Below, piece after piece: positions 6,565 through 60,253 of a DNA stretch of 64,000 bases. Both the position numbers and the translations under genes were made by a program. Positions within the stretch are counted from its first letter, which is position 1. Each line of letters starts with the position of its first letter. Where the stretch lies: positions 806,001 to 870,000 of the forward strand of contig NZ_JAENHP010000002.1 in NCBI RefSeq assembly GCF_016834655.1, given 5' to 3'. Below the pieces are notes generated by a model that was given only the letters and a program-made list of their open reading frames with translations, did not search any database and was not told the origin of the DNA. This DNA comes from Paractinoplanes ovalisporus. Lineage in GTDB: Bacteria > Actinomycetota > Actinomycetes > Mycobacteriales > Micromonosporaceae.

Positions 6565-6582
6565 ACCGCAGATCTTTCCCCG

Positions 6583-6609
6583 GAAACCGGTCAGAGGATG
6601 ACCGGTTTC
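6583..6609. promoter_or_regulatory. Palindromic operator between divergent genes
   Basis: GAAACCGGTCA (6583-6593) and TGACCGGTTTC (6599-6609) form perfect 11-bp arms around a 5-bp spacer, GAGGA. The spacer also supplies the ribosome-binding region of the rightward gene. It lies exactly between the WYL regulator and the hydrolase, which suggests the regulator binding site (inference). Confidence 0.65.
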
Positions 6610-6628
6610 GCCCCGCAGGATGGCGTCC

Positions 6629-8849: not shown

Positions 8850-8857
8850 GAGACTCC

Positions 8858-9802: not shown

Positions 9803-9906
9803 GCCATCGATGGTCAGCGGCCCCCGCGCACCTATCCAGGGCCTGCCGATCACAGGCTCGCCGGGCCGTGGCCCCCTCTCGCCCGATTACCGCGGGTGAT
9901 GGCGGT

Positions 9907-10149: not shown

Positions 10150-10260
10150 GCATGGCACTCTGGTCGCCGCAGGCCGGTCACTTCCAGTGAGCAGTTGCGG
10201 CGTAGTCGTCCGGTCACACCCCCGCGCCCGCCGCCCCTCGCTCGACGGTTGGATGGACCG

Positions 10261-10752
10261 GTGACCCTGACGACCTTCACGCTCCGTCCGGCCACCACCG
10301 GTGACGTCGAGGCCATAGCCGAGTTGCGGGCTGCCGTGCTGCGGGCCGATCTGGAACGGCTGGGACGTTTCGACGAGCATCGCGTGCGGCAGCGGCTGCG
10401 GGACGCGTACGAGCCGGAACACACCTGGATCCTCGAGGTGGACGCGGTTTTCGCCGGTTGCGTCGCGCTGCGGCCCGCCGCCGACGCGACCTGGCTGGAA
10501 CACTTCTATCTGGCCCCGCACCTGCAGGGCCGTGGCATCGGCGCCGCGGTGCTGCGGCGGCTGCTGGCCCGATGCGACCGCGACGGCGTCGTGGTCCGCC
10601 TCAACGTCCTGCGGGGCAGCCCCGCGAGGCGCCTGTACGAGCGGCACGGTTTCACGCTGGAGAGCGAGGACCCGGTCGACGTCTTCCTGGTGCGCGAGCC
10701 CGTACGGCAGCACAATGGACCACGTGCGCAGGAGTGCCGCCGCGACCGGTAG
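10261..10752 (+). CDS. GNAT family N-acetyltransferase
   Basis: This is a 163-aa acetyl-CoA-dependent acyltransferase. The acetyl-CoA binding motif appears as LQGRGIGAAVLRRLL, preceded by the strand LEHFYLAP and followed by the terminal motif ARRLYERHGF. The GTG at 10261 begins the fold immediately (TLTTFTLRPAT) with GGA 8-10 bp upstream. The next gene starts 38 bp inside this one. The acceptor substrate is unknown. Confidence 0.82.
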   Translation: MTLTTFTLRPATTGDVEAIAELRAAVLRADLERLGRFDEHRVRQRLRDAYEPEHTWILEVDAVFAGCVALRPAADATWLEHFYLAPHLQGRGIGAAVLRRLLARCDRDGVVVRLNVLRGSPARRLYERHGFTLESEDPVDVFLVREPVRQHNGPRAQECRRDR

Positions 10753-11233
10753 CGCGGTTTTCTTCGCTCTCGCCCCGGGCACCGTCGCCGGCTTGCTGCC
10801 CTGGGCCCTGACCGGTTGGCGCCCCGGTGCTCCCTTCGGCCACTGGCTGCCGGCCCGCCTGCTGGGCTTGCTGATCCTCGTCGCGGGGGCGGCCTTCCTG
10901 GTGCACGCGTTCGCCCGCTTCGTCATCGAGGGTTTCGGCACCCCGTCCCCGACCGCGCCGCCCAGCCACCTGGTCGTGGGCGGCATCTACCGTTACGTCC
11001 GCAACCCCATGTACATCGCGGTCGTCACCACGATCCTGGGCCAGTCCCTGCTGCTGTGGCGCCCGGTCCTGATCCCGTACGCCGTCGCGGTCGCGGCCGC
11101 CATGGTCACGTTCGTCCAGGCCTACGAGCAGCCCGTGCTGACCGAGAAGTTCGGCGCTGAATACACGACGTACCGCCGGGCCGTCCCCGGTTGGTGGCCC
11201 CGCCTGACCCCCTGGCACCCCGACGACGCCTAG
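10715..11233 (+). CDS. Isoprenylcysteine carboxyl methyltransferase-like membrane protein
   Basis: This 172-aa protein has three to four membrane segments and the family signature GIYRYVRNPMYIAV, the SAM-binding region of ICMT/PEMT-type methyltransferases, followed by EYTTYRRAVPGWWPR near the C-terminus. It probably methylates a lipid or isoprenoid-linked acid in the membrane. ATG 10715 and GTG 10724 are both possible starts; either overlaps the GNAT gene, suggesting co-translation. Confidence 0.8.
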   Translation: MDHVRRSAAATGSAVFFALAPGTVAGLLPWALTGWRPGAPFGHWLPARLLGLLILVAGAAFLVHAFARFVIEGFGTPSPTAPPSHLVVGGIYRYVRNPMYIAVVTTILGQSLLLWRPVLIPYAVAVAAAMVTFVQAYEQPVLTEKFGAEYTTYRRAVPGWWPRLTPWHPDDA

Positions 11234-11574
11234 CCCCGCAAGCGCCAGACGGGTGTCGGGTGGCGTCACCTTGTGTAGCTGATTGCGACACCGCCGGCGG
11301 ATGGTGTCCGGTTCGCGGTGGTGGGGCGGCCCGGGGGAGCGGGGCGGTAAGGGCCACCGTCTTTGTCCAAAAGGGCACGTAAAAACGGGCCCGTGCCCCC
11401 GTCGGCCGGCGCTGTCACCTCCTCATAACGGCAGCCAGAAGCGGGGACGTACCACAGTCTCTCCGGTTGCGCCCTCGGCCGCCGTCACCAACAGTGAAGA
11501 CTTGCGGTGCACGAACGACGGAGGTCTATGTTGGTTTTTGCTTAGGTTTGTCCCTCTCCCCCGGAGGATTCCCC
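11234..11574. other. Intergenic region upstream of the glucanase
   Basis: There is no supportable gene in 341 bp. It holds a weak inverted repeat GGGCACG/CGTGCCC (11373-11379 and 11392-11398), possibly terminating the methyltransferase transcript, and an AT-richer stretch (about 11528-11555) before the glucanase that is the likely promoter and 5' leader. GGAGG at 11563-11567 is the ribosome site. Confidence 0.5.
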
Positions 11575-12402
11575 ATGCGTAAGTCACGGTTTCTGATCTC
11601 GGCCACCGCCCTCGTGGTGACCCTGGGCGCCGGCCTCGCGGTCGGCTCCCGCAGTGACACGGCCGAGGCGGCCGTCGTCTGGAACGAGGACTTCAACGGC
11701 CCGGCCGGCAGCGGCGTCGACACGTCGAAGTGGAGCTACGACGTCGGCGGCCACGGCTGGGGGAACCAGGAGCTCCAGTACTACACCGAAGGCACCGGCA
11801 ACGTCGCCATGGATGGGCAGGGAAACCTGGTCATCACGGCCCGCAAGGGCAGCGGCGGGCACAACGACTGCTGGAACGGCGCCTGCCAGTTCACGTCGGG
11901 GCGCATTCAGACCTCGGGCAAGTTCACCCAGAAATATGGCCGGGTCGAGGCGCGGATCAAGGTGCCCGACGGTTCCGGTCTCTGGCCCGCGTTCTGGATG
12001 CTGGGCGGCAGCAACTGGCCGACCGACGGCGAGATCGACATCATGGAGGTCGTCGGCCGCGAGCCCAACCAGCTGTTCGGCACGCTGCACGGCCCGGGCT
12101 ACTCGGGCGGCGAGTCCTACGGCAACCAGATCGTCTCGGGCACGCCGTGGCACCAGGACTTCCACACGTACGCGGTGGACTGGTCACCCAATCTGATCGT
12201 CTGGACCGTGGACGGTCAGGAGTTCTTCCGTGCCACCCCGGATTCGCTGCGCGCGGCCAAGGGCAACGTCGACTGGGTGTTCGAGCACGAGTTCTTCGTC
12301 ATCCTCAACATGGCTGTCGGCGGGAACTTCGGCCAGGGCAACCCGGCCGGCCTGCCCGACGAGAGCAAGATGCTGATCGACTACGTGCACGTGAGCGCCT
12401 GA
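11575..12402 (+). CDS. Secreted GH16 endo-beta-glucanase (laminarinase-like)
   Basis: This 275-aa secreted enzyme cleaves beta-1,3 or mixed-linkage glucans. A Sec signal peptide (KSRF, hydrophobic 7-24, probable cleavage after AEA at about 32) precedes a single GH16 jelly roll. The catalytic motif DGEIDIMEVVG supplies E153 (nucleophile), D155 and E158 (acid/base). No carbohydrate-binding module is present. The last codons (IDYVHVSA and stop) are the first copy of a tandem repeat running into the intergenic region. Confidence 0.92.
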   Translation: MRKSRFLISATALVVTLGAGLAVGSRSDTAEAAVVWNEDFNGPAGSGVDTSKWSYDVGGHGWGNQELQYYTEGTGNVAMDGQGNLVITARKGSGGHNDCWNGACQFTSGRIQTSGKFTQKYGRVEARIKVPDGSGLWPAFWMLGGSNWPTDGEIDIMEVVGREPNQLFGTLHGPGYSGGESYGNQIVSGTPWHQDFHTYAVDWSPNLIVWTVDGQEFFRATPDSLRAAKGNVDWVFEHEFFVILNMAVGGNFGQGNPAGLPDESKMLIDYVHVSA

Positions 12403-12483
12403 AGCATCGACTACGTGCACGTGAGCGCCACTACGTGTACGTCAGCGCCTGAAGCATCGACTACGTGTACGTCAGCGCCTGAA
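12376..12483. repeat. 30-bp tandem repeat spanning two convergent stop codons
   Basis: The unit ATCGACTACGTGCACGTGAGCGCCTGAAGC occupies 12376-12405. It is followed by a copy truncated at 24 bp (12406-12429), a 26-bp copy lacking its first bases (12430-12455) and a 28-bp copy (12456-12483). The last two carry GTGTACGTC instead of GTGCACGTG. Forward, copy one encodes the C-terminus and TGA of the glucanase; in reverse, the last copy encodes VQALTYT and TAG of the GGDEF-EAL protein. The palindromic core ACGTGCACGT may help fold a terminator. Confidence 0.85.
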
Positions 12484-14386
12484 CCGACGACTCCAGGCGC
12501 GCGGTGAGGGCGTCGGCGGGCAGCGGCTTGGCGAAGTGGTACCCCTGAGCCGTGTCGCAGCCGATCTCCCGCAGCGCCGCCACCGCGGCCTCGTCCTCGA
12601 CGCCCTCGGCGACCACGGTCAGGCCCAGCTGGTGGCCCAGCTCGACGGTCGAGGCGACCAGGGCCCGGCTGCTGGTGTTCTCGGCCATGTCCATGACGAA
12701 GGAACGGTCGATCTTCAGTTCGGCGATCGGCAGGACCTTCAGGTACGTCATCGACGAGTAGCCGGTGCCGTAGTCGTCGATCGACGCCTTCACGCCGAGG
12801 GTCCGCAGGCGCTTCAGGGCCTCGATCGCGGTGTCCGGGTCGCTCATCAGGGCGTACTCGGTCACCTCGATCGAGAGCAGCTCGCCCGGCACGCCGGTCT
12901 CCTCCAGCAGGGCCGAGACCCGCTGCGGGAAGTCGGGGTCGAGCAGGCTGCGGGTCGACACGTTGACGGCGACCGGCACGCGGTGACCGGCGTCGAGCCA
13001 GGCCCGGGTCTGGCTCAGCGCGATCGTCAGCACCTGCTCGGTGAAGCGGTGCATGAGGTTGGTGACCTCGAGGACCGGGATGAAGTCGGCCGGTGAGATC
13101 GGGCCGCGGACCGGGTGCGTCCAGCGGGCGAGGGCTTCCACGCCGACCAGCGCGCCGGTGTCGACGGCGACCTTCGGCTGGTAGTTGAGGGTGAGCTGGC
13201 CGGGGTCGTCGAGGGCGCGGCGCAGGTCGCCGAGCAGGGACAGCCGGGCCGCGACGTCCTGCTTCTGCTCCTCCTGGAAGCGGTGGAAGCCGGCGTGGTG
13301 CTGCTTGGCCTCGTGCATGGCGGTGTCGGCGTGCCGCAGCATCGCGGCCACGTCCTCGCCGTCGCGCGCGGTGTGGGCGCCGATGCTCACCTCGAGGTCG
13401 ACCGTGACCTCGTCGAGCACGAACGAGCTGTCGAACGCCTCGGTGAGCCGGGCCGCGATGGTCTCGCCGATCCGCGGGTCGTCGTCGTTGAGGAGCACCG
13501 CGAACTCGTCGCCGCCGAGCCGGGCCACCGCGTCGTCGCCTGCACGGACCAGGGACGCCAACCGGCGGCCGGCCTCGACCAGCAGCAGGTCGCCGATGCG
13601 GTTGCCGAGCTGCTCGTTGACGTCGCGGAAGCCGTCCACGTTGATGACCAGCACGGTGGGGCGGCCGCCCTCCAGGGCCTGGGCCACGCGGGTGGTGAAG
13701 GCGGTGCGGTTGAGAAGGCCGGTCAGCGGGTCGGTGGCGGCCATCGCCTCGACCTGGCGGCGCAGCGCGCGGGTCGACAGGCCGAGGCCGGCCAGCACCA
13801 TGACACCGAACAGGAAGACGACGATGACGGCGACGACCGAGTTGCGGGAGTCGCGCAGGGAGTCGGCCTCCCGTTGCCCGTACTCGGCCAGGTGTGCGGT
13901 CTGCTCCTCCAGCAGGTGCTTCATCATGGCGGTGTACTCGGGTTCGAGCACCCCCTCGATGGTCACCTTGGCCGCGCCCATGTCGCCGCGGTTGATCTGG
14001 TCCAGGAAGCCGACGACCACCATGTGCAGGTTGCGGTGCTGTTCGGCCAGCCCGGCCGCGTGCGCCTCGTGCTCCTCGTCGATGGCGGCCATCCGGTCCA
14101 TCGCGTCACCGGTGTGCTGGTTGGCTTCGAGCAGCTCCTGGCTCTCCTCGCCCCGGGGTTCCAGCATGGCGCCCTGCAGCAGGGCCATTTCGGTGGTCAG
14201 CGCGAACGCCGCCTGCTGGTAGGCGTCGGTGTCGCTGCCGGCGGCGGCCACGTCGCGGACCCGCTTGGCCTGCTGCCAGTTCGCCACCACGCAGTAGACG
14301 GCGAGGCTCGCCAGGAGCAGGGCCAGCACCAGCGAGACGGCGCGGGGCGCACGCAGGAAACGCACCGGGGGCCTCCCGTCCGTCAT
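12461..14386 (-). CDS. Membrane GGDEF-EAL cyclic di-GMP enzyme
   Basis: This is a 641-aa bifunctional-type protein. Two membrane helices (about 17-35 and 184-205) enclose an extracytoplasmic helical sensor of about 150 residues. A GGDEF domain (intact GGDEF 291-295) and an EAL domain (EAL 417-419, DDYGTGYSS, LKIDRSFVMD) follow. Both catalytic motifs are intact, so it may synthesise and degrade c-di-GMP. An RAGD (281-284) sits six rather than five residues before GGDEF, so the inhibitory site may be altered. It converges on the glucanase gene. Confidence 0.93.
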   Translation of the reverse strand: MTDGRPPVRFLRAPRAVSLVLALLLASLAVYCVVANWQQAKRVRDVAAAGSDTDAYQQAAFALTTEMALLQGAMLEPRGEESQELLEANQHTGDAMDRMAAIDEEHEAHAAGLAEQHRNLHMVVVGFLDQINRGDMGAAKVTIEGVLEPEYTAMMKHLLEEQTAHLAEYGQREADSLRDSRNSVVAVIVVFLFGVMVLAGLGLSTRALRRQVEAMAATDPLTGLLNRTAFTTRVAQALEGGRPTVLVINVDGFRDVNEQLGNRIGDLLLVEAGRRLASLVRAGDDAVARLGGDEFAVLLNDDDPRIGETIAARLTEAFDSSFVLDEVTVDLEVSIGAHTARDGEDVAAMLRHADTAMHEAKQHHAGFHRFQEEQKQDVAARLSLLGDLRRALDDPGQLTLNYQPKVAVDTGALVGVEALARWTHPVRGPISPADFIPVLEVTNLMHRFTEQVLTIALSQTRAWLDAGHRVPVAVNVSTRSLLDPDFPQRVSALLEETGVPGELLSIEVTEYALMSDPDTAIEALKRLRTLGVKASIDDYGTGYSSMTYLKVLPIAELKIDRSFVMDMAENTSSRALVASTVELGHQLGLTVVAEGVEDEAAVAALREIGCDTAQGYHFAKPLPADALTARLESSVQALTYT

Positions 14387-14473
14387 CGCGGCGGGCCGGA
14401 CGACCCGCTAGATCGAGTTTCGGACGTCCAGGGTTGCGCATGACGGGAGTCTCGGTTGCGAAACGGGTGCAGG

Positions 14474-15778
14474 TCAGGCCAGGAACGTTTCGTACAGGAG
14501 AAACGCGTTCAAACCGATGATCATGGCCGCCGCCAGGCCGGCCGCCGCCGTGGTCAGGGGCCGGTTGACGAACACGCCCATGATGTCGCGGCGACGGGTC
14601 AGCAGCACCAGCGGCACCAGCGCGAACGGGATGCCGAAGGAGAGCACCACCTGCGAGATGACCAGGCTGTCGGTCGGTGGCAGCCCCAGCGCCAGCACGA
14701 TCAGCGCGGGCGCCATCGTCACCGCGCGCCGCAGGAAGAGCGGGATGCGCCGGCGGATGAAACCCTGCATGACGACCTGGCCCGCGTACGTCCCCACGCT
14801 CGACGACGACAGTCCCGACGCCAGCAGCGCGACCGCGAAGGCCAGGGCCGCCCCGCCGCCGACCAGCCGCCCGAGCCCGTCGTGGGCCGACTGGATCGCG
14901 TCCGCGTCCGAGAAGCCGGTGCCGTGGAACAGCGACGCCGCGATCACCAGCATGGAGAGGTTGATCAGCCCGGCCGCCCCCAGCCCGATCATCACGTCGA
15001 GCCGCTGGAACCTCAGGAGTTCCCTCTTCTCCCCGTCGTCCCGGCAGGCCACCCGCGACTTGGTCAGCGCCGAGTGCAGATAGACGACGTGGGGCATCAC
15101 CGTGGCGCCGATGATGCCGCAGACCAGCAGCAGGCTCTCACTGCCGGCGAGCCGCGGGATCAGCCCCGAGGCCACCCCGCCCGGATCGGCGCCGACGACC
15201 AGCAGGTCGTACAGGAAACCGAGGAACACGATGCCGAGCAGGCCCGCGATGGCGAGCTCGAAGCGCCGGTAGCCCCGCTGTTCGAGGGCGAGGATGCCGA
15301 ACGCGACGACCGCGGTGATCAGCCCGGCCGGGAACAGGGGCACGTGGAACAGCAGGTAGAGGCCGACCGCGGCGCCCAGGAACTCGGCCAGGTCGGTGGC
15401 CATCGCGATGATCTCGGCCTGGACCCAGAGGCCCCGGGACACCGTACGGGGGAAGTGTTCGCGGCACAGCTCGGGCAGGTCACGTCCGGTGGCCACGCCG
15501 GCCTTGGCCGACAGATACTGCACGAGCATCGCGGTCAGGTTGGCGACGACGATGACCCAGGCCAGGGTGTATCCGAACTTGGCGCCGGCGGTGAAGTTGG
15601 TCGCGAAGTTGCCGGGGTCGATGTACGCGACGGCGGCGACAAAAGCCGGACCAAGAAGAGCAACAGTTCCCCGTACGCGTCCTCGTGCCCGCAATTGCCG
15701 CAAAACGGACGAGGACGGGTCGGTGACGGCGGGGGCGACGACGGGGCGTACCTCGTCGTCGCCCATCACAGGGCCCAT
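14474..15778 (-). CDS. mntH: NRAMP family divalent metal transporter (MntH-like)
   Basis: This 434-aa proton-coupled importer of Mn2+/Fe2+ has 11 predicted helices, the TM1 metal-site motif DPGN (54-57) and the TM6 motif MPH (228-230). The start is 15778 (or 15766, also ATG); the ribosome site is poor. It begins only 4 bp after the stop of the GroEL gene, so it is very probably transcribed as the last gene of the monooxygenase operon. A role in supplying iron to the di-iron enzyme is inference from position. Confidence 0.9.
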   Translation of the reverse strand: MGPVMGDDEVRPVVAPAVTDPSSSVLRQLRARGRVRGTVALLGPAFVAAVAYIDPGNFATNFTAGAKFGYTLAWVIVVANLTAMLVQYLSAKAGVATGRDLPELCREHFPRTVSRGLWVQAEIIAMATDLAEFLGAAVGLYLLFHVPLFPAGLITAVVAFGILALEQRGYRRFELAIAGLLGIVFLGFLYDLLVVGADPGGVASGLIPRLAGSESLLLVCGIIGATVMPHVVYLHSALTKSRVACRDDGEKRELLRFQRLDVMIGLGAAGLINLSMLVIAASLFHGTGFSDADAIQSAHDGLGRLVGGGAALAFAVALLASGLSSSSVGTYAGQVVMQGFIRRRIPLFLRRAVTMAPALIVLALGLPPTDSLVISQVVLSFGIPFALVPLVLLTRRRDIMGVFVNRPLTTAAAGLAAAMIIGLNAFLLYETFLA

Positions 15779-45569: not shown

Positions 45570-46562
45570 ATGGCCGTTCCGCACAGGCGGATGGCGGGGG
45601 ATGCCTTATCCGAAACAGATCCCGTACGACCGAACTGCACCTCGTATTTCGAGCACGGCCACCGTCGGCCCCTGATCGACGGCATCGCCGACGGGCGGGT
45701 CCCGCTGAAGTTCGCGTACGCGGGGAGCGCCGCCTTCACCCACGACCAGTACGCCAGCACCACCGGCTACGCCGACATGATGACCTCGGCCCAGCGCGAG
45801 TCGGACGTGCTGTTCGCCTCCGGCGCCTGCGCCCCGGCCCTGTCCGGGGTCGTCGAGGTCGGGCCCGGCAACGGCCGGCACAGTGTCGCGTTGCTCGACC
45901 GGTTGCGCGCCGGCGGCCTCGGCATACGGCGTTACCTGGGCCTCGACTTCAGTGCCACCCTCCTGGGGATCTCGTCCGACCGGCTGCGCCGCTGCCTTCC
46001 GCCCGAGCTGCGGGTCGACACCGCGGTCTGGGACATGGAGGGCGCGCCGACCGCGGTGGTCGAGAACTGGCGGCCGGACGGCCGTCCCGTGCTGGCCTGC
46101 CTGGTCGGGCACACGGTCGGCAACTTCGAGGATCCCGTGCAGGCGATGCGCAACCTGGCCGGCCTGCTGCGCCCCTCCGACGTGCTCCTGGCCAGCGTGC
46201 TGCTGCGGCCGATGCCGGTCGCGGCCGGCCTGTCGATGTCGGCCTACCGCACCGAGGAATTCCGGCAGGCCGCTCTCGAACCGATGTTCGCGGCCGGCAT
46301 GAAAGCCGGCGAATTGGAATTCACCGTCGATTATCGCGACGGCGCCTTTGTCGGTGAGGTCACGCTGTTGCGGAGTGCCCGCCTCGACGGTGTGAATCTT
46401 CCGAGCGGTTATCGCTTTCGATGTTTCATGTCCCGCCGCTTCGAGAGCGCGGACGTTGTTCATCTGTTCGAATCCGCGGGCTGGGCGATCTGCTCCGCAT
46501 TTGTTGACCAGGACAGCGATCATATGACTGTCGTCGCTTCCCGGGCCGAGGAGTTGAGATGA
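45570..46562 (+). CDS. EgtD-like (Methyltransf_33) SAM methyltransferase
   Basis: This 330-aa protein has SAM motif I VVEVGPGNGRHS, then GLDFSATLL, and the late motif LVGHTVGNFEDP resembling the EgtD histidine N-alpha-methyltransferase fold (GSTIGNF in EgtD). The ergothioneine partner egtB is absent, so a different amine or amino-acid substrate is likely. The start is uncertain: ATG 45570 is used (GGGGGA 13 bp upstream), with ATG 45591 or TTG 45549 as alternatives. The stop overlaps the next start (ATGA). First gene of the six-gene accessory operon. Confidence 0.78.
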   Translation: MAVPHRRMAGDALSETDPVRPNCTSYFEHGHRRPLIDGIADGRVPLKFAYAGSAAFTHDQYASTTGYADMMTSAQRESDVLFASGACAPALSGVVEVGPGNGRHSVALLDRLRAGGLGIRRYLGLDFSATLLGISSDRLRRCLPPELRVDTAVWDMEGAPTAVVENWRPDGRPVLACLVGHTVGNFEDPVQAMRNLAGLLRPSDVLLASVLLRPMPVAAGLSMSAYRTEEFRQAALEPMFAAGMKAGELEFTVDYRDGAFVGEVTLLRSARLDGVNLPSGYRFRCFMSRRFESADVVHLFESAGWAICSAFVDQDSDHMTVVASRAEELR

Positions 46563-48100
46563 CCATAGATTCGCGAAATCCGGCCGGATTCGCCGGTAAC
46601 GCATTGATCGAACGCGCCCGGCGGGCGTGCTCGCTGCACCGGGTGGCGTTCGAGGGAACCGACCCCTACAGCGTCCGGGTCCCGTCGGCCGCGGTCGACG
46701 AACTCGTGCAGAGCCTCAGCAGCACGGTCCGCAACCGGGTGGCCCAGATCGTGCCGTTCGCCCCGCAGGCCCGCTCGGCCAGCGCCTTCTCCGGCCGGCT
46801 GTGGCGGCACGTCGCGCAGAGCTTCCCCGTGGAGCGCTATTACCTCTTCCCCTCGGGCGAGGAGAACCGCCGGCAGGCCCAGCTCCAGGTCGACGAGGAC
46901 CAGCGTTACGACCTCTACTCGGCGCATCTGCCGGTCACCTCGGGCGGGTGGAGCGCATCGCCGCCGGTCCCCATGAACACCCTCTGGCTGATCGACGACG
47001 AGGTGGTGGTCCGTCAGGAGGCGAGCGGGCGTGGCGCCGGCTCGTGGCTGGTCACCGTCCGCCCGTCCGAGGTGCAGCGCGCCCGTGATCTGGTGCAGAC
47101 GCTGCGCGATCAGGTCGGCATGCCGGCGGCCGGGGGACTGTCCGGCCCGGACATCACCCAGTGGCTGCTGGAGTCGGCCGAGAAGGTGTTCAACGCGGCT
47201 CAGCTCTCCTGCACGGGCAGCGAATACATCGACGACAAGGACTGCGAGTGGTATCACGGCGCCTGGCAGTACCTCCGGTTGCTCGACATGGTCAGCAGCC
47301 CGACCTGGCACCCCGACTTCTACGCACGTGAGCTGCGCGCGGCCATCCATGAGCGCGGCGCCCGGCGGATCCTGATCAGCGGCGCCGCCGACTGGACCAC
47401 CCTGGCCTTCGTGCTCGATGCCGCGAAGCTGCCGTCCGGCGACCCCGTGCCCGGGCTGGATGTGCACGTCGTCGACCTCTGCCCGACACCTCTGATGTCG
47501 TGCTCCTGGTTCACCCGGCGATGGGGGGACGGGCGCTTCCCGGTCACCACGCACCAGGCGAACGTCCTTCGAACGGGTGATCTCCGGAAGCAGGGCGTTC
47601 CGCCGGAGGGGTCGTTCGACCTCGTCGTGGCCGACGCCTTCCTGACGCGATTCGCACCGGTCGATGCGCGGCGGGTGCTGCGGAAATGGTACAAATTGCT
47701 GCGTCCGGGCGGCAGTGTGGTGACGACGGTGCGCCTGCACGCGCGAAACCGCTACCCCGACCGGGACGGCGCCGATCCGGAATTCGACGGCTTGCGGCGC
47801 GTGACCAACCAGGTGGACGATTTCGAGTTGCGTCTGCGAGATCGCGCAGGCGTTTGGCAGGATATGCTTTCGATCGATCTGGAGGATCTTTCGCGCGCCG
47901 GTCGGCGATATGCGAAACGGATAATTAGCCACGACCTGGGCGACGCCGACCACATCGCCACCGCATTTAAAGATCAACGATTCCACGAGATTTGTATGGA
48001 CAGTGCGCGGGTACAAGGCGAACTCGTCGGAACCGAGTACGCCCGGATCACCGCTGTGCGTCCGGGCTCGCGAGCCGCTGCAAGGGCCGATAAGGACTGA
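46559..48100 (+). CDS. Two-part SAM methyltransferase with N-terminal sensor-like domain
   Basis: This 513-aa protein has N-terminal residues about 1-190 forming an alpha/beta region (PVERYYLFPSGEENRR, NTLWLIDDEVVVRQ) that resembles PLD-like ligand domains of some regulators. The C-terminal half is a class I methyltransferase: motif I ILISGAADWTTLA, acidic strand end VHVVDLCP, motif IV SFDLVVADAFLTRF and LLRPGGSVVTTVRL. The substrate is unknown. Translationally coupled to the EgtD-like gene, so the two enzymes probably act on one molecule. Confidence 0.75.
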   Translation: MTIDSRNPAGFAGNALIERARRACSLHRVAFEGTDPYSVRVPSAAVDELVQSLSSTVRNRVAQIVPFAPQARSASAFSGRLWRHVAQSFPVERYYLFPSGEENRRQAQLQVDEDQRYDLYSAHLPVTSGGWSASPPVPMNTLWLIDDEVVVRQEASGRGAGSWLVTVRPSEVQRARDLVQTLRDQVGMPAAGGLSGPDITQWLLESAEKVFNAAQLSCTGSEYIDDKDCEWYHGAWQYLRLLDMVSSPTWHPDFYARELRAAIHERGARRILISGAADWTTLAFVLDAAKLPSGDPVPGLDVHVVDLCPTPLMSCSWFTRRWGDGRFPVTTHQANVLRTGDLRKQGVPPEGSFDLVVADAFLTRFAPVDARRVLRKWYKLLRPGGSVVTTVRLHARNRYPDRDGADPEFDGLRRVTNQVDDFELRLRDRAGVWQDMLSIDLEDLSRAGRRYAKRIISHDLGDADHIATAFKDQRFHEICMDSARVQGELVGTEYARITAVRPGSRAAARADKD

Positions 48101-48150
48101 CCCGGGCGTTCCCGCGGTGCCGTCCACCGCCGGAAGGGAGCGCACCGCAC

Positions 48151-50913
48151 GTGACCTCCGACGCTTCCGGATGGGACGAGCTCGAACGGGTCGGAGCAGA
48201 CTCCGACCCGTCGGCGATCCTGGAGGCGGCCCGCACCGACCTGAAGGCTCTCGCCGACCGGGTCGAGGAGCGGCTCAGCGCCGACCCGGCCCTGCGTCTG
48301 CTGGTGTCGATCGACTACGGCGGTCCGATCGGCCCGCACCTGCTGGTCCGGGTGGGCGACCGGCCCGAGCCCGTCATGATCACGGACCGGGTGCTGGTGC
48401 GTGCCCTGGAGCGCGGGGTCCGTCCGCTGGAGCTGCTGGCCTATGCGATCGCCGCGCCACTGCCGCTCGACCCCGGCTGGCGCCCGCGGCGGATCGGACA
48501 CGCCACTCCGCCCAACGAGGAGCAGGCGCGCAACCATCAGCGGATCTTCCGCAACACCGGCGCCTACGAGCAGGTCGACCGTGCCCTGACCCGGGGGCGG
48601 GACGTCCTGGTGGTCGGCCCGCACGGCTCCGGGCGCTCGGCGTTGATCGGCACCATCGCCCGCCGGCTCGGCAACCTTCCCTACCAGCAGCGGCGGGGGA
48701 TCATCTGGCTGAACCTGACCGACCCGGCCGACGGTCCCGAGTCGATCGTCATGGCCCTGCTCGAGGCCGAACGCCACGAGGGCTACGTCGTGGTCGTCGA
48801 GGGGCTGCAGGCCAACCTTCCCGTGCTCGACGCGCTGTTCCAGTTCATCACCCGTCTGCGCGCCGAGTTCGGCCTGCGGGTCCAGGTGCTGGCCTCGGGG
48901 TGGCGGTCGGTGGCCGACCTGCTCGGCCGCGACGGCAGCTTCGCGCTGACCCAGATCCGGGTCGACGCCCGCGCGACGATCGACGTGATGCTGAGGGAGA
49001 GCATCCCGTCCGCCGTCGAACGCGCCAAGATCCGTCCGCTCCTGGTGGACGACGTCCACCTGGCGGCCCGGGCCATCGACATCTACAAGCGCACCGGCAA
49101 GGTGCCCACCGAGGTGCAGCTGGGTGTCGAGTTCACCAAGCCGGACGCGTCGGGCGAGGAGCGGCACGCGCTGTACTTCCTCGCCTGCCTGGGCTATTTC
49201 GGTCTCGCGTTGCCGGAGAAGGAGGCGGCGCGCTTCGGCGACGGCGTCGTGGAGCGGTTGCACAAGGACGATCTCGTGCATCGCACCGACGGCGCCTACG
49301 CCATCGCGCCCCGGCGCCGGGCCAAGATCGTGCTGCGGCACGCGCTGAACAACTGGAGCGGCGACCTGCGCGACGAGGACGCGCCCGAGTCGATCGTCTG
49401 GCAGCACCTGCAGGAGGGTGGCGAACGGCTGATCCGGGCCACCCTGAGCCAGATCGAGCTGGTCGTCTCGCCCGAGGAGCTGCGCCCCGAGAGCCTGTCC
49501 CTGCTGGCCGCGTGGGAGCGGTCCGAGCAGCTGGGCGACTGGCTCGAGCGACGCACCCGCGACGATCCGCGGTGGGGCAACAACCTGGGGTCGGCGGTCT
49601 TCGCCGCGATCGCCCTGACCCGGCTCAACCGGGAGAGCCAGTGGCTGTCCATCGCCGAGCCGATCCGGGGCCACTGGCGATACGACGACCCGGAGAAGCG
49701 GGTGCTCGACTACGTCGGCGAGCACACCACCGACTTCGCCGACTTCGACGAGATCGCCGTCCGGATGCGCATCGAGGACGAGCTGTCGGGCCGGGCCGGG
49801 CACCCGACCGGCATCCCGTGGGACAAGTTCGACCGGGAGCACGCCTACCGGAACTGGGCTCTGGGCCTGCTGCTCTGCCTGGAGGGGACGGCCCCTTCCG
49901 AGTCCCGCGACGAGCAGCGGATCGAGCAGCTCCTCAAGCTGGCCGAGCGGGCGGCCGAGCCGGACGGGAGTTTCTATCCGGCCCGGGTGCCGTGGGTGAC
50001 CGCCCGCATCGTGATCGGCCTGCTGCACGCCGAACTGTCCCCGCAGGACAACCCGACGATCATGAAGGCCTGCAAGTGGCTGCTGAGCCTGGTCACCAAG
50101 AAGGAGCGGCCGGCCGAGGGGGAGCCGCCGGAGACGTCGTCCTGGTGGCGTGGTGGCACCGGATCGTGGAACCGCGACGAGGCCACCACCGCGATGTGCC
50201 TCACCGCGCTGATCCTGGCCGGGTTCGGCGAGCGGGAGCAGGTCGCGACCGCCCTGACCTGGCTGCGCGGCCGCGAGCCGCAGTGGTGCAAGACCGACCA
50301 CGAGATCGACCTCGCCCAGGTCGTGGAGACGCTCGCCGCCGCCGACGAGCCGTTCGACTCGTACCTGCGTGAGCTGCTGGACCGCACCCTGCAGGAACTC
50401 GATTCCGAACCGGCCGAACGCCCCGAGGAGCAGCTGCGGACGGCGTTCCTCGCCGCCCAGCTCTCCGAGATCGTGCGGCAGACCGTCCACAACGAGTTCC
50501 TACGGCTGCTGCGCGACGTGATGAAGCCCGGCGTTGCCACGCCCGAGACGCCGGCTGCGGAGCCGGTCGTCGAGAGTCCGAGCACCGGCCCCGTCGCCGA
50601 GCCGGTGGCCGAGGGCCCCTGCGGCCTGCTCCCGGCACAGCTGGAGAGCTGGCAGGAGGCGTGCCTGATGCTGTCCCAGAAGCTCACGGAGCAGATCAGC
50701 GGCCGCCAGTCCGTCGACGCGCCCACGGTGCAGCGCGGGCTGAAGGAGAAGCTTGCTCAGCGCGACCGCTACTTCCGGCTGCGCGAGAGGCTGACGGCCC
50801 GGGCGCCCGCCACGGTGCTGGTCGAGCTCAACCAGCTCGGCCTGCTGGTCTGCGGGCAGACGTGGCCGCCCTTGCCCTTCCCCGACCGCTACTGCGACGA
50901 TGATGCGCCGTGA
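48151..50913 (+). CDS. STAND-like NTPase with degenerate P-loop and alpha-toroid repeats
   Basis: This 920-aa protein has an N-terminal domain of unknown type (about 25-110). A nucleoside-triphosphatase module (about 130-330) has Walker A GPHGSGRS (156-163), where the usual Lys is Arg162. A Walker B-like VVVVEG ends in Glu217. A helical middle follows, then repeats of alpha-toroid type near 600-720 (SWWRGGTGSWNRDEATTAMC, ALTWLRGREPQW), a Pro/Glu linker and a helical C-terminus. STAND proteins act as signal-triggered switches in defence and cell death; that role is inferred. GTG 48151 has AAGGGAG upstream; the stop overlaps the next start. Confidence 0.75.
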   Translation: MTSDASGWDELERVGADSDPSAILEAARTDLKALADRVEERLSADPALRLLVSIDYGGPIGPHLLVRVGDRPEPVMITDRVLVRALERGVRPLELLAYAIAAPLPLDPGWRPRRIGHATPPNEEQARNHQRIFRNTGAYEQVDRALTRGRDVLVVGPHGSGRSALIGTIARRLGNLPYQQRRGIIWLNLTDPADGPESIVMALLEAERHEGYVVVVEGLQANLPVLDALFQFITRLRAEFGLRVQVLASGWRSVADLLGRDGSFALTQIRVDARATIDVMLRESIPSAVERAKIRPLLVDDVHLAARAIDIYKRTGKVPTEVQLGVEFTKPDASGEERHALYFLACLGYFGLALPEKEAARFGDGVVERLHKDDLVHRTDGAYAIAPRRRAKIVLRHALNNWSGDLRDEDAPESIVWQHLQEGGERLIRATLSQIELVVSPEELRPESLSLLAAWERSEQLGDWLERRTRDDPRWGNNLGSAVFAAIALTRLNRESQWLSIAEPIRGHWRYDDPEKRVLDYVGEHTTDFADFDEIAVRMRIEDELSGRAGHPTGIPWDKFDREHAYRNWALGLLLCLEGTAPSESRDEQRIEQLLKLAERAAEPDGSFYPARVPWVTARIVIGLLHAELSPQDNPTIMKACKWLLSLVTKKERPAEGEPPETSSWWRGGTGSWNRDEATTAMCLTALILAGFGEREQVATALTWLRGREPQWCKTDHEIDLAQVVETLAAADEPFDSYLRELLDRTLQELDSEPAERPEEQLRTAFLAAQLSEIVRQTVHNEFLRLLRDVMKPGVATPETPAAEPVVESPSTGPVAEPVAEGPCGLLPAQLESWQEACLMLSQKLTEQISGRQSVDAPTVQRGLKEKLAQRDRYFRLRERLTARAPATVLVELNQLGLLVCGQTWPPLPFPDRYCDDDAP

Positions 50914-51290
50914 TCCAGTGGCTACCGGCCTCCTCCTCGCTGAACTTCCTCGCCGGCATCTTCGCCGGCGCGGGCATCAACCTGATCACCTCGGTGGCGA
51001 CCGGCCCCGAGGGCGGTGTCTCATCGGGCAAACTGGCCCTCGACTCGGTGTTCTGGGTGCTGGCGGCCGCGTTCCTGACCTGGGCGGCCCAGGTGATCCA
51101 GCGGGGCGAACGCGAAGCCGACCGGACGATCGCGCCCGACTTCTCGGACGACGAGGAACGCGAAGTCAGGCAGGTGCTCCAGCGTCGATCGGTGCGCCGC
51201 GCGCGCTGGCCGCTGGTGTACACCGCGGTGTCGCTGGCCGGTGCGATCGCGCTGCTGCCCCGGTTCATCCATTGGAGTGCTCTGTTCTGA
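50910..51290 (+). CDS. Three-helix membrane protein coupled to the NTPase
   Basis: This 126-aa protein has predicted membrane helices at about 11-31, 43-63 and 98-120, with a charged cytoplasmic loop (EREADRTIAPDFSDDEEREV) between the second and third. It starts by GTG inside the NTPase stop (GTGA), so the two are made in fixed ratio. In conflict operons such small membrane proteins are often the killing effector or the anchor; which applies here is unknown. Confidence 0.72.
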   Translation: MIQWLPASSSLNFLAGIFAGAGINLITSVATGPEGGVSSGKLALDSVFWVLAAAFLTWAAQVIQRGEREADRTIAPDFSDDEEREVRQVLQRRSVRRARWPLVYTAVSLAGAIALLPRFIHWSALF

Positions 51291-51356
51291 CCCCCGGCCC
51301 CGCCCGTCGTTGCTCTCGGCAGACTGCTGGTCTGCCATTCGTAAGGGAGAAGATTC

Positions 51357-51965
51357 ATGGCCGTGCCGACTGAGCGGGGAGCTCGCCGGTTCCTCATCCT
51401 GCACGGCTGGCAGAACCGGCAACCGGAGGAGCACTGGCAGCATCGGCTCTGCAAACGGCTGACCGAACGCGGCCACGACGTCAGCTATCCCGCGCTGCCC
51501 GAGCCCGACTTCCCGGCGCTGAAGGAGTGGACCGGCGCGATCGAGGAGGAACTGGTCCGCGGCCGCGGCGACGAGCTGGTCGTGATCGCGCACAGCCTGG
51601 CCTGCATCGCCTGGATCCACCTGCCGCAACTGGCCCGGCGTTTCCACCCGCCGGTCAGCCGTCTGCTGTTCGTCGCGCCACCCAGCCCGGCGTTTCTCGC
51701 CAAGACTCCCGAACTGCGCGAGTTTCAGTTCGCCGAGGGCGCCGACCGGCTGGTCAAGGACACCACGGTGGCGCCGCCCCGGCTGGCCTGCTCGACCGGC
51801 GACCCGTACTGCGAGCCGCCGGCGAACCAGCTCTACGACGCGGTGTTCGATGTGGATCTCATTGACGGCGCCGGCCACTTCGATCTGGAGGGTGCCGGGT
51901 ATGGCGAGTGGCCGTCCGTGCTGGCCTGGTGCGAGAACGGAACGGTGCGCCTGACCGGGCGGTGA
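51357..51965 (+). CDS. RBBP9/YdeN-type serine alpha/beta hydrolase
   Basis: This 202-aa compact hydrolase has the nucleophile in VIAHSLACIAW (AHSLA in place of GxSxG), the acid Asp in STGDPYCEP and the His in GAGHFDLEG. RFLILHGWQNR near the N-terminus gives the oxyanion region. The family includes serine hydrolases of unsettled substrate. It lies 66 bp after the membrane gene and 28 bp before the glycosyltransferase, in the same operon. Confidence 0.85.
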   Translation: MAVPTERGARRFLILHGWQNRQPEEHWQHRLCKRLTERGHDVSYPALPEPDFPALKEWTGAIEEELVRGRGDELVVIAHSLACIAWIHLPQLARRFHPPVSRLLFVAPPSPAFLAKTPELREFQFAEGADRLVKDTTVAPPRLACSTGDPYCEPPANQLYDAVFDVDLIDGAGHFDLEGAGYGEWPSVLAWCENGTVRLTGR

Positions 51966-51993
51966 CCTTGCCCGGGCCGACTAACATCCGGCC

Positions 51994-53796
51994 ATGGACG
52001 ACAAGCTCGTGCAGCTCGCGGAGGCGTTCCGCGAGACGGCCGGGAAGCGGATTCCCGAGGCTCGCGTGGCCGACCTGGCCAACAGTGTGGCCGCCCGGCT
52101 CGCTGGCAAGATCGTCTTCCCCGAGGAGACCGGCCGGCGCCTGCCCGAGGTCCGGGTCGCGCCTCCGGCCGGCGAGACCAGGCCGTGGCTCGTCGCCTTC
52201 GCCGTGTGGCCCGGCGCGGGGCTCGGCGAGACCCTCGACACCCGCGTCGCCGACCAGCTGCACGAGTCGGTGCGCCTGCGCAACGAGTTCCCGGCGGGCG
52301 TGCGCCTCGGTCTGATGATCGTCGTGGTCGGCCCGGGCGGCGGGTTGCCTCCGGTCGACCTCGAACGGGTCACCCGGCTCGCCGTCGCCTTCGACAGCGT
52401 GGTCGTCGGGCGCGTCGGCGACGAGGACGACTGGGTGCGGGTCACCCGGCACGGCTCGACGGAACTGGGCGGCCTGCCCGACGCGACCTATCAGCTCACC
52501 CTGGAGCCACCGGCTCCGGTGCCGGCCCCGGCTCCGGTTCCTCCCGCGGAGCCGCCCGCCGTTGCGCCGCTGCGGTTCCTCCTGGTCGGCAGCGAGTGGG
52601 AATCGGAGAACGGCGGCGTCTCGACCCTCAACCGGCACCTGGCGATCGCCCTCGCTGCGGCCGGGGTCGAGGTGCACGTGGCTGTCCCGGAGGCGAGCAC
52701 GGCCGCACGTGAGGCGGCGGCCCGGGCCGGTCGGCCCGGGATGCCGGTCATCCGTCTTGCGGCACCCGCGCCGGTCCCCGGCATCACGGGCCTGAGCATC
52801 CTGCTGACCAGGCCCGAGTTCGACGACGAGGACTACTGGCCCGACGTGATCGTCGGGCACGGCCGGATCCTCGGCCCCTACGCGTACGCCCTGCAGAGGT
52901 CCTTCTTCCCGGGGGCCAAGCGCCTGCACATCGTGCACACCGACGCCGCGCGGCTGGAAGCCACCAAGGAGGAGCCCGACGGCGAGTCCCGCATGATGAC
53001 GGCGCAGGAGCGGAGCCAGATCGAGATGGCCCTGGCCGAGTCGGCCGACGTGGTGGCGGGAGTCGGGCCGCTGCTGGCCGAGTCGATCGAGCACCGTCTG
53101 CACCGCCGGGGCAAGAAGGCGGTCACTCTCCTGCCCGGGTTGCCCGACGACTACGAGGTCGACCCCTCCAACTGGCCGGCGCCGCGACAGGTGCTGCTGA
53201 TCGCCCGGGCCGAGGACGTACGGGTCAAGGGCATCGACATCGCCGTCCGCGCGGTCCGGTCGGCCGCCGAGAAGCTCGGCCCCGGCCCGCAGAATCGACC
53301 CTGGCTGGTGATCCGAGGGCTCCCCCTGGATCACGACGACGAGGAGCGGAACCGTCTCAAGAAGCTGGCCGGCCCGGTCGACCTCGAGTTCCGGCCCCGC
53401 ATCACTTCGCGGAAGGCGCTGCTCGACGACCTGGGGGAGTCGCGTGTCGTCATCATGCCGTCCCGGCACGAGGGCTTCGGCCTGGCCGGCTATGAGGCGA
53501 TCGCGGCCGGCATCCCGGTGCTGATCAGCGAGGAGAGCGGCCTCGCCCGGATGCTGACCCGGCTGACCAAGGACGAAGACCTCCCACAGCCGCGGGAGAT
53601 CATCGCTGTCCGCGGGGAGGAGGAGTCCGAGGACGACGTGGTCGAGGCGTGGGCCGGGGCTCTCACCACCGTGCTCAGCACGCCGCGGCAGTCCTTCGCC
53701 CGGGCGGCCGAGTTGCGGGCCGAGTTGCGGGAGCAGATCAGCTGGCCGCGCACCGTGGCCGAGTTGCTGCACAGCCTGGGTTACGCCGAACGCTGA
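51994..53796 (+). CDS. GT4 glycosyltransferase with unknown N-terminal domain
   Basis: This 600-aa protein has residues about 1-172 forming an alpha/beta domain I do not recognise (two helices, then strands with LVAFAVWPG, LMIVVVGPGGG and a DDWVRVTRHG end). A Pro/Ala linker (about 173-190) precedes a GT-B glycosyltransferase (FLLVGSEWESENGGVSTL; E493-x7-E501 in HEGFGLAGYEAIAAG binding the nucleotide sugar). No membrane helix. The extra domain may connect the enzyme to other members of the operon. Target unknown. Confidence 0.82.
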   Translation: MDDKLVQLAEAFRETAGKRIPEARVADLANSVAARLAGKIVFPEETGRRLPEVRVAPPAGETRPWLVAFAVWPGAGLGETLDTRVADQLHESVRLRNEFPAGVRLGLMIVVVGPGGGLPPVDLERVTRLAVAFDSVVVGRVGDEDDWVRVTRHGSTELGGLPDATYQLTLEPPAPVPAPAPVPPAEPPAVAPLRFLLVGSEWESENGGVSTLNRHLAIALAAAGVEVHVAVPEASTAAREAAARAGRPGMPVIRLAAPAPVPGITGLSILLTRPEFDDEDYWPDVIVGHGRILGPYAYALQRSFFPGAKRLHIVHTDAARLEATKEEPDGESRMMTAQERSQIEMALAESADVVAGVGPLLAESIEHRLHRRGKKAVTLLPGLPDDYEVDPSNWPAPRQVLLIARAEDVRVKGIDIAVRAVRSAAEKLGPGPQNRPWLVIRGLPLDHDDEERNRLKKLAGPVDLEFRPRITSRKALLDDLGESRVVIMPSRHEGFGLAGYEAIAAGIPVLISEESGLARMLTRLTKDEDLPQPREIIAVRGEEESEDDVVEAWAGALTTVLSTPRQSFARAAELRAELREQISWPRTVAELLHSLGYAER

Positions 53797-53854
53797 GGTC
53801 CCGAACGGGAGCGACCGCATCCGATTGATCGATAAACGTCGATGGGAGGGTGCC

Positions 53855-53986
53855 GTGAGCGGGGTTGCTGCGCTTCTGGCCGGGGTTCTGGGGCTGGCGC
53901 CGGTGGTGGCCACCGAAGGGACGTCGGTGATCGTGGAACCGGATGCACCCGACGTGGTGACCCTGGCGCAGGTCGACAACGACTGA
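53855..53986 (+). CDS. 43-aa predicted secreted peptide
   Basis: GTG at 53855 is preceded by GGGAGGG at optimal spacing. The peptide is VSGVAALLAGVLGLAPVVAT followed by an acidic tail ending LAQVDND. The first 20 residues are a short hydrophobic signal-like helix; cleavage near PVVA would free about 24 acidic residues. Third positions are GC-rich. It lies 58 bp after the glycosyltransferase and may be the last gene of that operon. No homologue is recognised. Confidence 0.5.
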   Translation: MSGVAALLAGVLGLAPVVATEGTSVIVEPDAPDVVTLAQVDND

Positions 53987-58505: not shown

Positions 58506-58886
58506 TCATCCGCTGACGAGCCGCGTGAGCGCGAACCGGGCCACCGGCAGATAGAGGAGAACAACCGGGGCGGGACCTTCCACCGCGAGAAGGGTGCGCG
58601 TCCCGCCCGCGACCGCCTCCACGGTGTGCCACAGAGTCAACTGCACACCACCGGCCCGCACCACCCACGACCACGCCCGGGGCGCGTCGACACGAAGAAC
58701 ACGAAAGCGCGCCCGTACGCCCGCAGGCCCGTGCACCACGCCCTCGAGCCCGGCCCGGAGGGTCGCCTCGGGAAACTCGACCGACCTGATCTGGGGCGAC
58801 CATTCGGCCCAGCGGTCCGGCCGCACATACCGTTCCCACACTTCGCCGGCATCCCGCTTCCCCACCACCTCCAGAGCGCGTCGCAT
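58506..58886 (-). CDS. SRPBCC (polyketide cyclase-like) protein
   Basis: This 126-aa START/SRPBCC fold protein begins with GKRDAGEVWERYVRPDRWAEWSPQI and ends with the long helix LYLPVARFALTRL. Such proteins bind hydrophobic ligands. ATG 58886 has GAGG 5-8 bp upstream, just beyond the stop of the decayed ATPase gene. Substrate unknown. Confidence 0.82.
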   Translation of the reverse strand: MRRALEVVGKRDAGEVWERYVRPDRWAEWSPQIRSVEFPEATLRAGLEGVVHGPAGVRARFRVLRVDAPRAWSWVVRAGGVQLTLWHTVEAVAGGTRTLLAVEGPAPVVLLYLPVARFALTRLVSG

Positions 58887-58890
58887 CACC

Positions 58891-60253
58891 TCAGCCTAGG
58901 GCCGTTTCCAGCTCGTGGAGGGCCGTCACGACCTCGACGGGCAGATCTCCCACGGTCGCCGCCTTGGCCACAGTCGACGGCGACAGGGGTGCGGTAGCCG
59001 TTCGGCGTGAGCCAGGCGTTGAGGTGCTCGAGCACGATCGCGGGCAGAACGTCATGCGCGGTGACGTCGCGCCGCTCACCGCCGAAACGCGCGGCTTGCG
59101 ATTCGATCGTGTCAGCGGCTTCCGGGGTCGCGGCCTCGACCGCCTCAGCGAGGTGACGCGCCATCACGTCGGGGTCGGCGCCGCTCGCGCCAGCACGGCC
59201 GGCCGCGATCACCATCCGGCTGCGGGTCGCCTTGACCAGGGCGAGGTTGTAGTTGGACCCGAGCCCGTCCGCGATCCCGGCCAGCTTCGAGGGCGTGCTG
59301 ACCCGCTTGCCGCTGCGCTGCCCCCGGTCGATCCACACCACCGACTCGGGCGGCGCCTCGGTCAGCACCTCCGACGAGTGGGTGGCCAGGATGACCTGGG
59401 CGTCGCATTCGTCGAGCAGGCGCACCAGCCGGCGCTGCAGATCGGGGTGCAGATAGACCTCGGGCTCGTCGAGCACGATCGTCGGCGCGTCCCGGGCCTG
59501 GTAGATGTGCCAGAGCAACTGCAGCCAGATCTGCATGCCGTCGCCGGCCCAGGCGATCTCCTTGGGGACGCGACTGCGCCGTTCGCCGTAGAAGACGCCG
59601 AGCCGGTCCGCGGCCGCGTCCAGAATGACCTCCCGGAGTTCGATCTCGGGGATCCAGGGAGCGGCGAAGGCGAGGAAGTCCGGGAGCGTCCCCTCGTTCT
59701 TCATGATGAGCAGGTGATTGCGGAAGTGGCGGCTCGTCAGGCGGGTGCCCATCTTCTGCAGCACGTAGGTGGTGTTCTTCAGGTCTTCGACCGGGTCCAG
59801 CGGGGTGACCACCGGGACGATGGTCGGGGGCGGGAAATACGCCGGGATCTGTTTGAGCCGGGGCTGCCACTCGTCGGCGTGGTCGAGCCAGAAGAAACCC
59901 TCGTGGTCGCTGTAGTCCTCGTCGCCGGGCCAGACGATGTGCACCCGGGCGCCGGTCGTCCAGGTCACCGTCACGCGTGTTCCCTCGCGGGAGAAGTCGT
60001 AATAGACAGGGTCGACGCCGGCGGTCTCGGGACGGGGCAGGGCGTACGCCTTCACCGGGCGGCCCAGATCCCGGGCGGTCATCGTCGGGGCCTTGCGCCG
60101 GGCCGTGCGCAGGCATTTCCCGGCCAGCGCGACGGCCTCGACGATGGTTGACTTGCCGGCGCTGTTCGCGCCGACCAGGAAGGCGCTCGGCGCGAGCTTG
60201 ACCTGGAAGTTCTCGAACCCGCGGTAACGCCTGAACTTCACACCCTCGATCAC
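58891..60253 (-). pseudogene. OLD-type AAA ATPase, frameshifted near the 3' end
   Basis: The GTG at 60253 opens an ABC-type ATPase: Walker A VGANSAGKST, Walker B PTIVLDEPEVYLHPDLQ and H-loop ILATHSSEVL. From about 58988 the open frame loses codon bias, while the alternate frame reads LSPSTVAKAATVGDLPVEVV to a TGA at 58891. One base was therefore gained or lost near ACCCCTG. In addition, the Toprim nuclease region expected after LALVKATRSRMVI is missing (about 100 residues or more). The gene looks like a decaying OLD-family nuclease, a family known in phage defence. Confidence 0.72.

Follow-up and report, generated by a model that had tools for sequence, protein, structure and literature searches.

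What kind of system would place two methyltransferases, an NTPase, a small membrane protein, a hydrolase and a glycosyltransferase side by side on one strand? The question is raised by a stretch of 64,000 nucleotides from Paractinoplanes ovalisporus (contig NZ_JAENHP010000002.1, positions 806,001 to 870,000), the whole of which we call the window. The genome belongs to the Micromonosporaceae, and the named relatives fall in Paractinoplanes, Actinoplanes, Symbioplanes, Verrucosispora and Micromonospora. An initial annotation had proposed a candidate conflict-type operon in which a signal-type, STAND-like NTPase and a small membrane protein are central, and had treated all six genes as one unit. 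As a core of four genes the operon does recur, in 16 of 354 genomes, and the unity of the genes holds for these first four. An EgtD-like methyltransferase (MT1), a second methyltransferase (MT2), the NTPase and a three-transmembrane-helix (3-TM) protein form a conserved core whose genes stay together at different genomic locations. The hydrolase and the GT4-conflict glycosyltransferase are an optional pair behind this core in some lineages.

The core was delimited by profile searches of 354 Micromonosporaceae genomes, in which the best-looking candidates were scored (four per genome for MT2 and two for the NTPase) and absences are to be read as lower bounds; three protein searches scored 8000 candidates each. 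The MT2 profile matched 20 genomes, over the full length in 16 and partially in four. The NTPase profile matched 17, with the whole protein recovered in 16 (as two pieces in six of these) and the 17th match being a 75-residue fragment. Full-length MT2 and NTPase were carried by the identical 16 genomes, and homologues of MT1 and the 3-TM protein adjoin them at every one of the 16 loci, with the 3-TM gene placed upstream at locus L021. Low-scoring genes at L030/L056, L057, L064, L078 and L079 were added by tblastn or from lists of open reading frames (ORFs). When up to 8 kb of flanking sequence per side was compared, the 16 loci resolved into about ten neighbourhoods: six Micromonospora-type loci have common flanks, as do L022 and L055, and other pairs have at most three flank protein matches. 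At L064 the core has a GC content of 58.2% against 70.1% in its flanks, and nearby ORFs resemble transposase pieces by eye. In a sample of 396 Actinomycetota genomes (four candidates scored per genome), MT2 was matched three times: in the window's own genome, in G567 (C-terminal domain only) and in G653 (partial).

Some loci carry genes that were considered as further partners. At L065 (9504-11324, minus strand), MT1 is paired with a C-terminal-only MT2, and the NTPase and 3-TM protein were not matched in that stretch. A gene resembling pyruvate-phosphate dikinase beside this lone pair was rejected as a partner, as it encodes the full enzyme and was taken as housekeeping. A small gene upstream of MT1 at L020 (12978-13469) and L057 (12239-12772), 51% identical and without a clear Pfam family, was rejected as a core member, being unmatched at the other 14 loci, the window included.

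The NTPase has the expected AAA+/STAND-like part, as annotated, with a cyclase-like toroid in place of the typical repeat sensor and an arginine in place of the P-loop lysine. Its AF2 model (mean pLDDT 84.3) gave only six Foldseek matches at E <= 0.001, all of them Avs4, Orc, clamp loader or SIR2-STAND Avs5 chains, with Avs4 heading the list (E 1.9e-5) and Avs5 in sixth place (E 9.6e-4). The AAA+ P-loop fold was recovered by alignment to RFC domains 1-2 (2chg; TM-score 0.58 on the target, 4.3 A over 193 columns), and relatives of the NTPase matched nSTAND3 below the cut-off (best 24.5 versus 27.2 bits). Judging by the model, the protein likely belongs to the STAND class. Its first 120 residues form a small alpha-beta-beta-beta-alpha region in the model and had no match in Pfam, including no nuclease or Sir2 effector domain.

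Residues 445-795 match squalene-cyclase-type toroids, and the C-terminal repeat sensor of Avs was not found. Across 23 NTPase proteins, polar or aromatic positions conserved in at least 22 number 24 in the toroid and 4 in the NTPase part; as aligned, conservation in the protein lies in the toroid and not in the P-loop. It has 12-13% identity to squalene-hopene cyclase and complement TE-type toroids and differs from them in its fused STAND-like module and in the DxDD motif of squalene-hopene cyclase, which is absent from 22 of the 23 toroids. A profile of the helical tail (residues 833-907), built without any TIR protein, matched a 233-aa protein of genome G067 (E 5.2e-9; L086 8588-9289) that has a TIR_2 domain as its N-terminal part (E 6.9e-16). 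Once the TIR protein was included in the profile, the tail was matched in 16 of 354 genomes (14 candidates scored per genome), comprising 15 NTPases (all but that of L064) and the G067 protein. This one instance is suggestive of an adaptor role for the tail, by analogy with effector-associated domains (EADs), described in the accessible text of PMC7159879 as a small domain common to a core component and an effector, the latter encoded close by or at another place in the genome. In the NTPase relative P0131, HTH_3 is matched at the N terminus and the C-terminal tail is apparently missing.

The 3-TM protein has three hydropathy peaks in 15 of 16 homologues and two in L021, and it had no match in Pfam, NCBIfam or PADLOC at E <= 1. 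A start codon that yields a 4-bp overlap with the NTPase gene is present at 14 of the 16 loci, so the two proteins are probably co-translated by coupling.

The two methyltransferases upstream, one of them EgtD-like, are both present as initially annotated, and MT1 is not the ergothioneine EgtD. MT1 matched six PDB sequences at E <= 0.001, every one of them an EgtD (the best, 4pip, at 43.5 bits). Its score on the EgtD equivalog model TIGR03438, 39.7 bits, lies far below the cut-off of 290.9, and the genome has a separate true EgtD (G000:C2:99209, 359.4 bits), which led us to reject the ergothioneine assignment. We compared residues across 17 MT1 sequences, 16 of them from the system loci and one from a lone pair, with the genome's true EgtD as reference. 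The glycine of the S-adenosylmethionine (SAM) motif is kept in all 16 system copies, the Asn of TIGN and the Ser of E-V-S in all 17 sequences and the Tyr of KWFY in 16. MT1 differs from EgtD in that the Glu before the E-V-S Ser is Phe, the Met of I-E-M is Val or Ala, and the column of the second substrate Tyr (AYDD) falls in a gap of our alignment, each in 17 of 17. We take the EgtD Glu to contact the imidazole, and the Glu and Met together to set the histidine preference. We also take 4pip to be a tryptophan-accepting double variant of EgtD; its variant letters are visible in the alignment of MT1 with the PDB sequences. These residues suggest that MT1 would methylate an amino acid or N terminus other than histidine, probably one of aromatic or hydrophobic character.

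The C-terminal half of MT2 is a class I methyltransferase with a conserved block of its own (CxWYHGxWQYLRL, DLCxTPL, DAFLTRF), and no PDB sequence matched MT2 at E <= 0.1. Its N-terminal half, compared with three DUF6879 proteins of this genome, reached a profile probability of 84.7 with nine rows, four of them from known system loci, and 96.6 with all 14 MT2 rows. PF21806 was matched by 3 of the 14 MT2 relatives, the window MT2 remaining unmatched, and a nucleoside-deoxyribosyltransferase match occurred in one, presumably P0113, the row with an N-terminal extension. Lone MT2 domains occur in different gene settings too. At L068, L069 and L081 an MT2-like domain lies within another recurring cluster, which at L081 includes GNAT, aldo-keto reductase, AdoHcyase-like and further methyltransferase genes. 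Two DUF6879 proteins encoded about 5 kb apart in the window's own genome (L104 and L105, C24:71114-76297) look membrane-anchored by eye.

The extra N-terminal domain noted in the glycosyltransferase is real, and the protein as a whole is of the GT4-conflict type: it scored 367.8 bits on PF20706 (gathering cut-off 26), the third of 20 matches in the genome, of which the fourth reached 77.8 bits. E493 and E501, which form the E-x7-E pattern that we assume to be the GT4 nucleotide-sugar motif, are invariant in all three system-linked copies. The N-terminal domain probably has a degenerate restriction-endonuclease (PD-(D/E)xK) fold, with E-x-K broken in all three system-linked copies and present in both stand-alone relatives. 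Searched alone, this domain gave no match at E <= 0.001 among the 8000 candidates scored in the protein search, and its relatives were found by a genome search with a three-row profile (nine candidates scored per genome). PHROGs gave two matches only, both in the glycosyltransferase region. The stand-alone glycosyltransferases (L078 8540-10447 and L079 8647-10527, minus strand) have the nuclease-like domain with D and E-x-K intact, and that of L079 lies near an ORF that looks integrase-like by eye.

Related architectures occur elsewhere in the window's own genome. At L025 (C20), an NB-ARC/AAA protein of 1309 aa (4986-8915) is followed by an AAA_16-GT4-conflict fusion of 742 aa (8945-11173), an operon that resembles a published two-gene STAND-GT4 operon. 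L026 (C22:690000-709900) encodes a GT4-conflict - VMAP-M0 - NB-ARC - TPR fusion of 1357 aa (11260-15333).

Comparison with known systems, as far as the accessible text of the sources goes, showed partial likenesses. With Avs (AVAST) proteins Avs4 and Avs5, of the nSTAND3 class, which is predicted as the NTPase class of Avs5 (PMC12931631), the NTPase shares a predicted AAA+/STAND-like part, at low TM-scores and with weak nSTAND3 matches in relatives. It differs in having a toroid where Avs5 has predicted repeats, effectors, if any, in trans, often altered P-loops and companion methyltransferases. GT4-conflict is a predicted effector that is often fused to STAND NTPases (PMC8195603). The window has the same GT4 type beside a STAND-like NTPase, but the glycosyltransferase is encoded in trans, has a probably degenerate nuclease-like N-terminal domain and shares its operon with two methyltransferases. 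The two-gene nSTAND2-GT4 operon of the same source is likewise a short operon with STAND and GT4 components, but there GT4 is fused to a second STAND protein. Ternary MoxR-vWA systems with iSTAND components and EADs (PMC7159879) resemble the locus in a decayed STAND-like component, a TIR-linked tail and alpha/beta hydrolase partners; the window differs by its methyltransferases. The six window proteins had no Pfam match to MoxR, vWA, caspase or trypsin, with relatives' flanks scanned in part, and membership of these systems (VMAP, iSTAND) was rejected on the lack of a MoxR or vWA match. The mad1-8 set of MADS (methylation-associated defence) was not found; matches were partial, the methyltransferase part of mad2 matching MT1 (E 7.5e-6) and MT2 (E 2.7e-8), and the P-loop part of mad8 the NTPase (E 0.017).

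In the accessible text of PMC7159879 the words methyltransferase, terpene and prenyltransferase have no occurrence. In that of PMC8195603, terpene, squalene and prenyltransferase have none and methyltransferase has three, the places shown being histone methyltransferases. A literature search on GT4-conflict, nSTAND3, and STAND with methyltransferase, squalene cyclase or Actinoplanes yielded no description of the core among the matches listed, supplementary files and most subscription papers lying outside its scope. The four-gene core looks undescribed in the literature searched, in line with the annotated lack of a named counterpart.

We favour, at about an even chance, reading the locus as a STAND-gated conflict-type system (defence, abortive or stress), and we infer an immune or cell-death function. 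The reading draws on the same 16 carriers among 354 genomes, with MT1 and the 3-TM protein adjoining throughout about ten neighbourhoods, and on the structural matches of the model (Avs4, Orc, clamp loader, Avs5) together with sub-cut-off nSTAND3 in relatives. It also draws on the NTPase/3-TM overlap and on the excess of conserved positions in the toroid over the NTPase part. Further support comes from the glycosyltransferase, as GT4-conflict is a predicted effector type in the accessible text of PMC8195603, and from the NTPase tail on a TIR protein, comparable to the EADs of PMC7159879 as far as its accessible text describes them.

Under this reading, the two methyltransferases would make or modify a small amino-acid-like molecule or peptide, and the conserved toroid pocket of the NTPase protein would bind or convert the methyltransferase-linked molecule. 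Binding in the toroid may switch the STAND part, which would then act on the probably co-translated 3-TM protein as the constant membrane effector and, perhaps via the helical C-terminal tail, on the hydrolase and glycosyltransferase as added payload. A bolder version, which we regard as decidedly unlikely, is a new type of signalling immunity. Here the two methyltransferases would lead to a methylated amino-acid- or peptide-derived second messenger, the cyclase-fold toroid in the STAND protein would receive this messenger or catalyse the final step of its synthesis, and the co-translated membrane effector would be fired by the STAND switch. The dead-nuclease-tethered glycosyltransferase and the hydrolase would form an exchangeable second payload.

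Several observations weigh against a conflict role. The Foldseek alignments to Avs4 and Avs5 have TM-scores of 0.11-0.18 and a root-mean-square deviation above 25 A over a long alignment, and the window NTPase itself had no match to Pfam nSTAND3 at E <= 1. Walker A, GPHGSGRS in the window, is intact in 8 of the 23 NTPase rows, changed from K to R in 10 (that of the window among them) and eroded in 5, which makes switching driven by NTP doubtful for many copies. The 8 intact rows led us to reject simple P-loop loss as a family trait. A sensor of invader proteins would be expected to vary, yet the toroid is conserved. The TIR-tail link is a single instance, and the MT2 and NTPase profile searches found no core in G067. 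All 14 control genomes have PF20706 matches too, other GT4 enzymes also passing the cut-off, and the hydrolase and glycosyltransferase lie behind the core at few loci (see below). Searches of plasmids with the NTPase and with P0077 (a relative of MT2), of phages with MT2 and of viral contigs with profiles of both proteins gave no match, PADLOC gave only generic methyltransferase or ATPase matches on the window proteins, and the GC content of the window core shows no anomaly (70.5 versus 70.8 in the flanks). Finally, at L058-L063, in six Micromonospora-type genomes, the 3-TM gene is followed at 65-75 bp by a gene for a penicillin-binding protein (PBP; Transgly and Transpeptidase), a hint of a function in the envelope. 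We rejected counting these as six independent cases, since the common flanks make them one event by descent.

The main rival is a small metabolic or cell-envelope modification operon, which we consider possible if rather unlikely. The toroid would then be an enzyme resembling a cyclase, transaldolase or glycosidase, its product would be decorated by the methyltransferases, the glycosyltransferase and the hydrolase, the 3-TM protein would anchor the complex, and the P-loop part would be regulatory or a vestigial scaffold. No flank gene is common to the ten neighbourhoods, however, and so there is no constant scaffold-building enzyme, carrier or transporter partner. The presence of the DxDD motif in only one of 23 toroids and the patchy distribution of the core also argue against such an operon. 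To our knowledge, a GT4-conflict domain, a STAND-like part and a TIR-linked tail would be unusual in biosynthesis.

Compared with the conflict reading, in which the hydrolase and glycosyltransferase serve as payload, it is improbable that the core is a unit of its own and the pair merely placed alongside. The pair occurs at only 3 of the 16 loci (the window, L020 of Paractinoplanes toevensis, and L057), and G066 and G068 each encode a lone glycosyltransferase that shares its N-terminal domain. Against this, the pair directly follows the 3-TM gene in identical order and strand in two genera. Another alpha/beta hydrolase sits between MT2 and the NTPase at L064, and P0056, a relative of MT2, carries a fused Ser_hydrolase domain with 28% identity over 75 residues to the window hydrolase. 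The joint recurrence of the NTPase, 3-TM, hydrolase and glycosyltransferase genes at unrelated sites, which the initial annotation had named as support, is seen at these three loci: L020 and L057 have one small upstream gene in common, and the window has no flank gene in common with either. Least probable is a STAND-type switch that, in the manner of LAL/SARP regulators, would control developmental or antibiotic genes and whose ligand the methyltransferases would tune: the HTH_3 match of P0131 (E 3.4e-4, below the cut-off) and the DUF6879-like module of MT2 would fit it, but a helix-turn-helix match was found in only one of six NTPase proteins scanned (window, P0128, P0122, L064, L028 and P0131), and the 3-TM and GT4-conflict partners are ill-suited to a transcription factor.

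The layout of the conflict-system candidate in the window largely agrees with the initial annotation. Six plus-strand ORFs in one direction were confirmed (45549/45570-53796), with 4-bp overlaps (ATGA/GTGA) of MT1 with MT2 at 46559 and of the NTPase with the 3-TM gene at 50910. The remaining intergenic gaps are 50 bp (MT2/NTPase), 66 bp (3-TM/hydrolase) and 28 bp (hydrolase/glycosyltransferase). The gene-poor DNA described upstream is a region of about 1 kb without a called gene. The operon end, given as 53986, was misplaced: the last stop codon is at 53796, 190 bp earlier, and the sole gene call at 53855-53986 is a low-scoring ORF of 43 aa. A promoter and terminator scan of the operon was uninformative.

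Genes of the operon in the window, with the basis of each assignment
Feature	Coordinates	Strand	Basis
MT1, EgtD-like SAM methyltransferase (Methyltransf_33)	45570 (ATG)-46562, upstream start 45549 (TTG) possible	+	PF10017 50 bits
MT2, DUF6879-like N-terminal module and class I SAM methyltransferase domain	46559-48100	+	profile comparison, relatives' PF21806
NTPase, STAND-like (residues ~120-440), alpha/alpha toroid (445-795) and helical C-terminal tail (~825-907)	48151-50913	+	model, Foldseek
3-TM protein, 126 aa	50910-51290	+	hydropathy; first helix strongly conserved (NFLAGxxAGxGIN)
Alpha/beta hydrolase, PF06821 (YdeN-like), optional module	51357-51965	+	94.6 bits
Glycosyltransferase, probably restriction-endonuclease-like N-terminal domain (~1-175) and GT4-conflict (196-591), optional	51994-53796	+	PF20706 367.8 bits

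Around the operon, a PBP gene lies about 1 kb upstream on the opposite strand, its product having about 32% identity to the Micromonospora-type PBP. An AAA_21/AAA_15 ATPase, of a kind known from several defence systems, is encoded about 5 kb past the operon (58886-60253, minus strand). PADLOC matched sigma-factor, ABC-type, methyltransferase and AAA models among ten flanking proteins, which we do not read as a defence island.

Should the locus prove to be a conflict system, it would connect STAND-like switches with a pair of unusual methyltransferases and a cyclase-type pocket, and would point to a STAND protein that senses small molecules instead of proteins. The GT4-conflict glycosyltransferase, in trans and with a probably dead nuclease-like tether, would make the targets of GT4 effectors testable within one operon. 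The core, its 16 carriers and their optional tails provide a concrete set for experiments.

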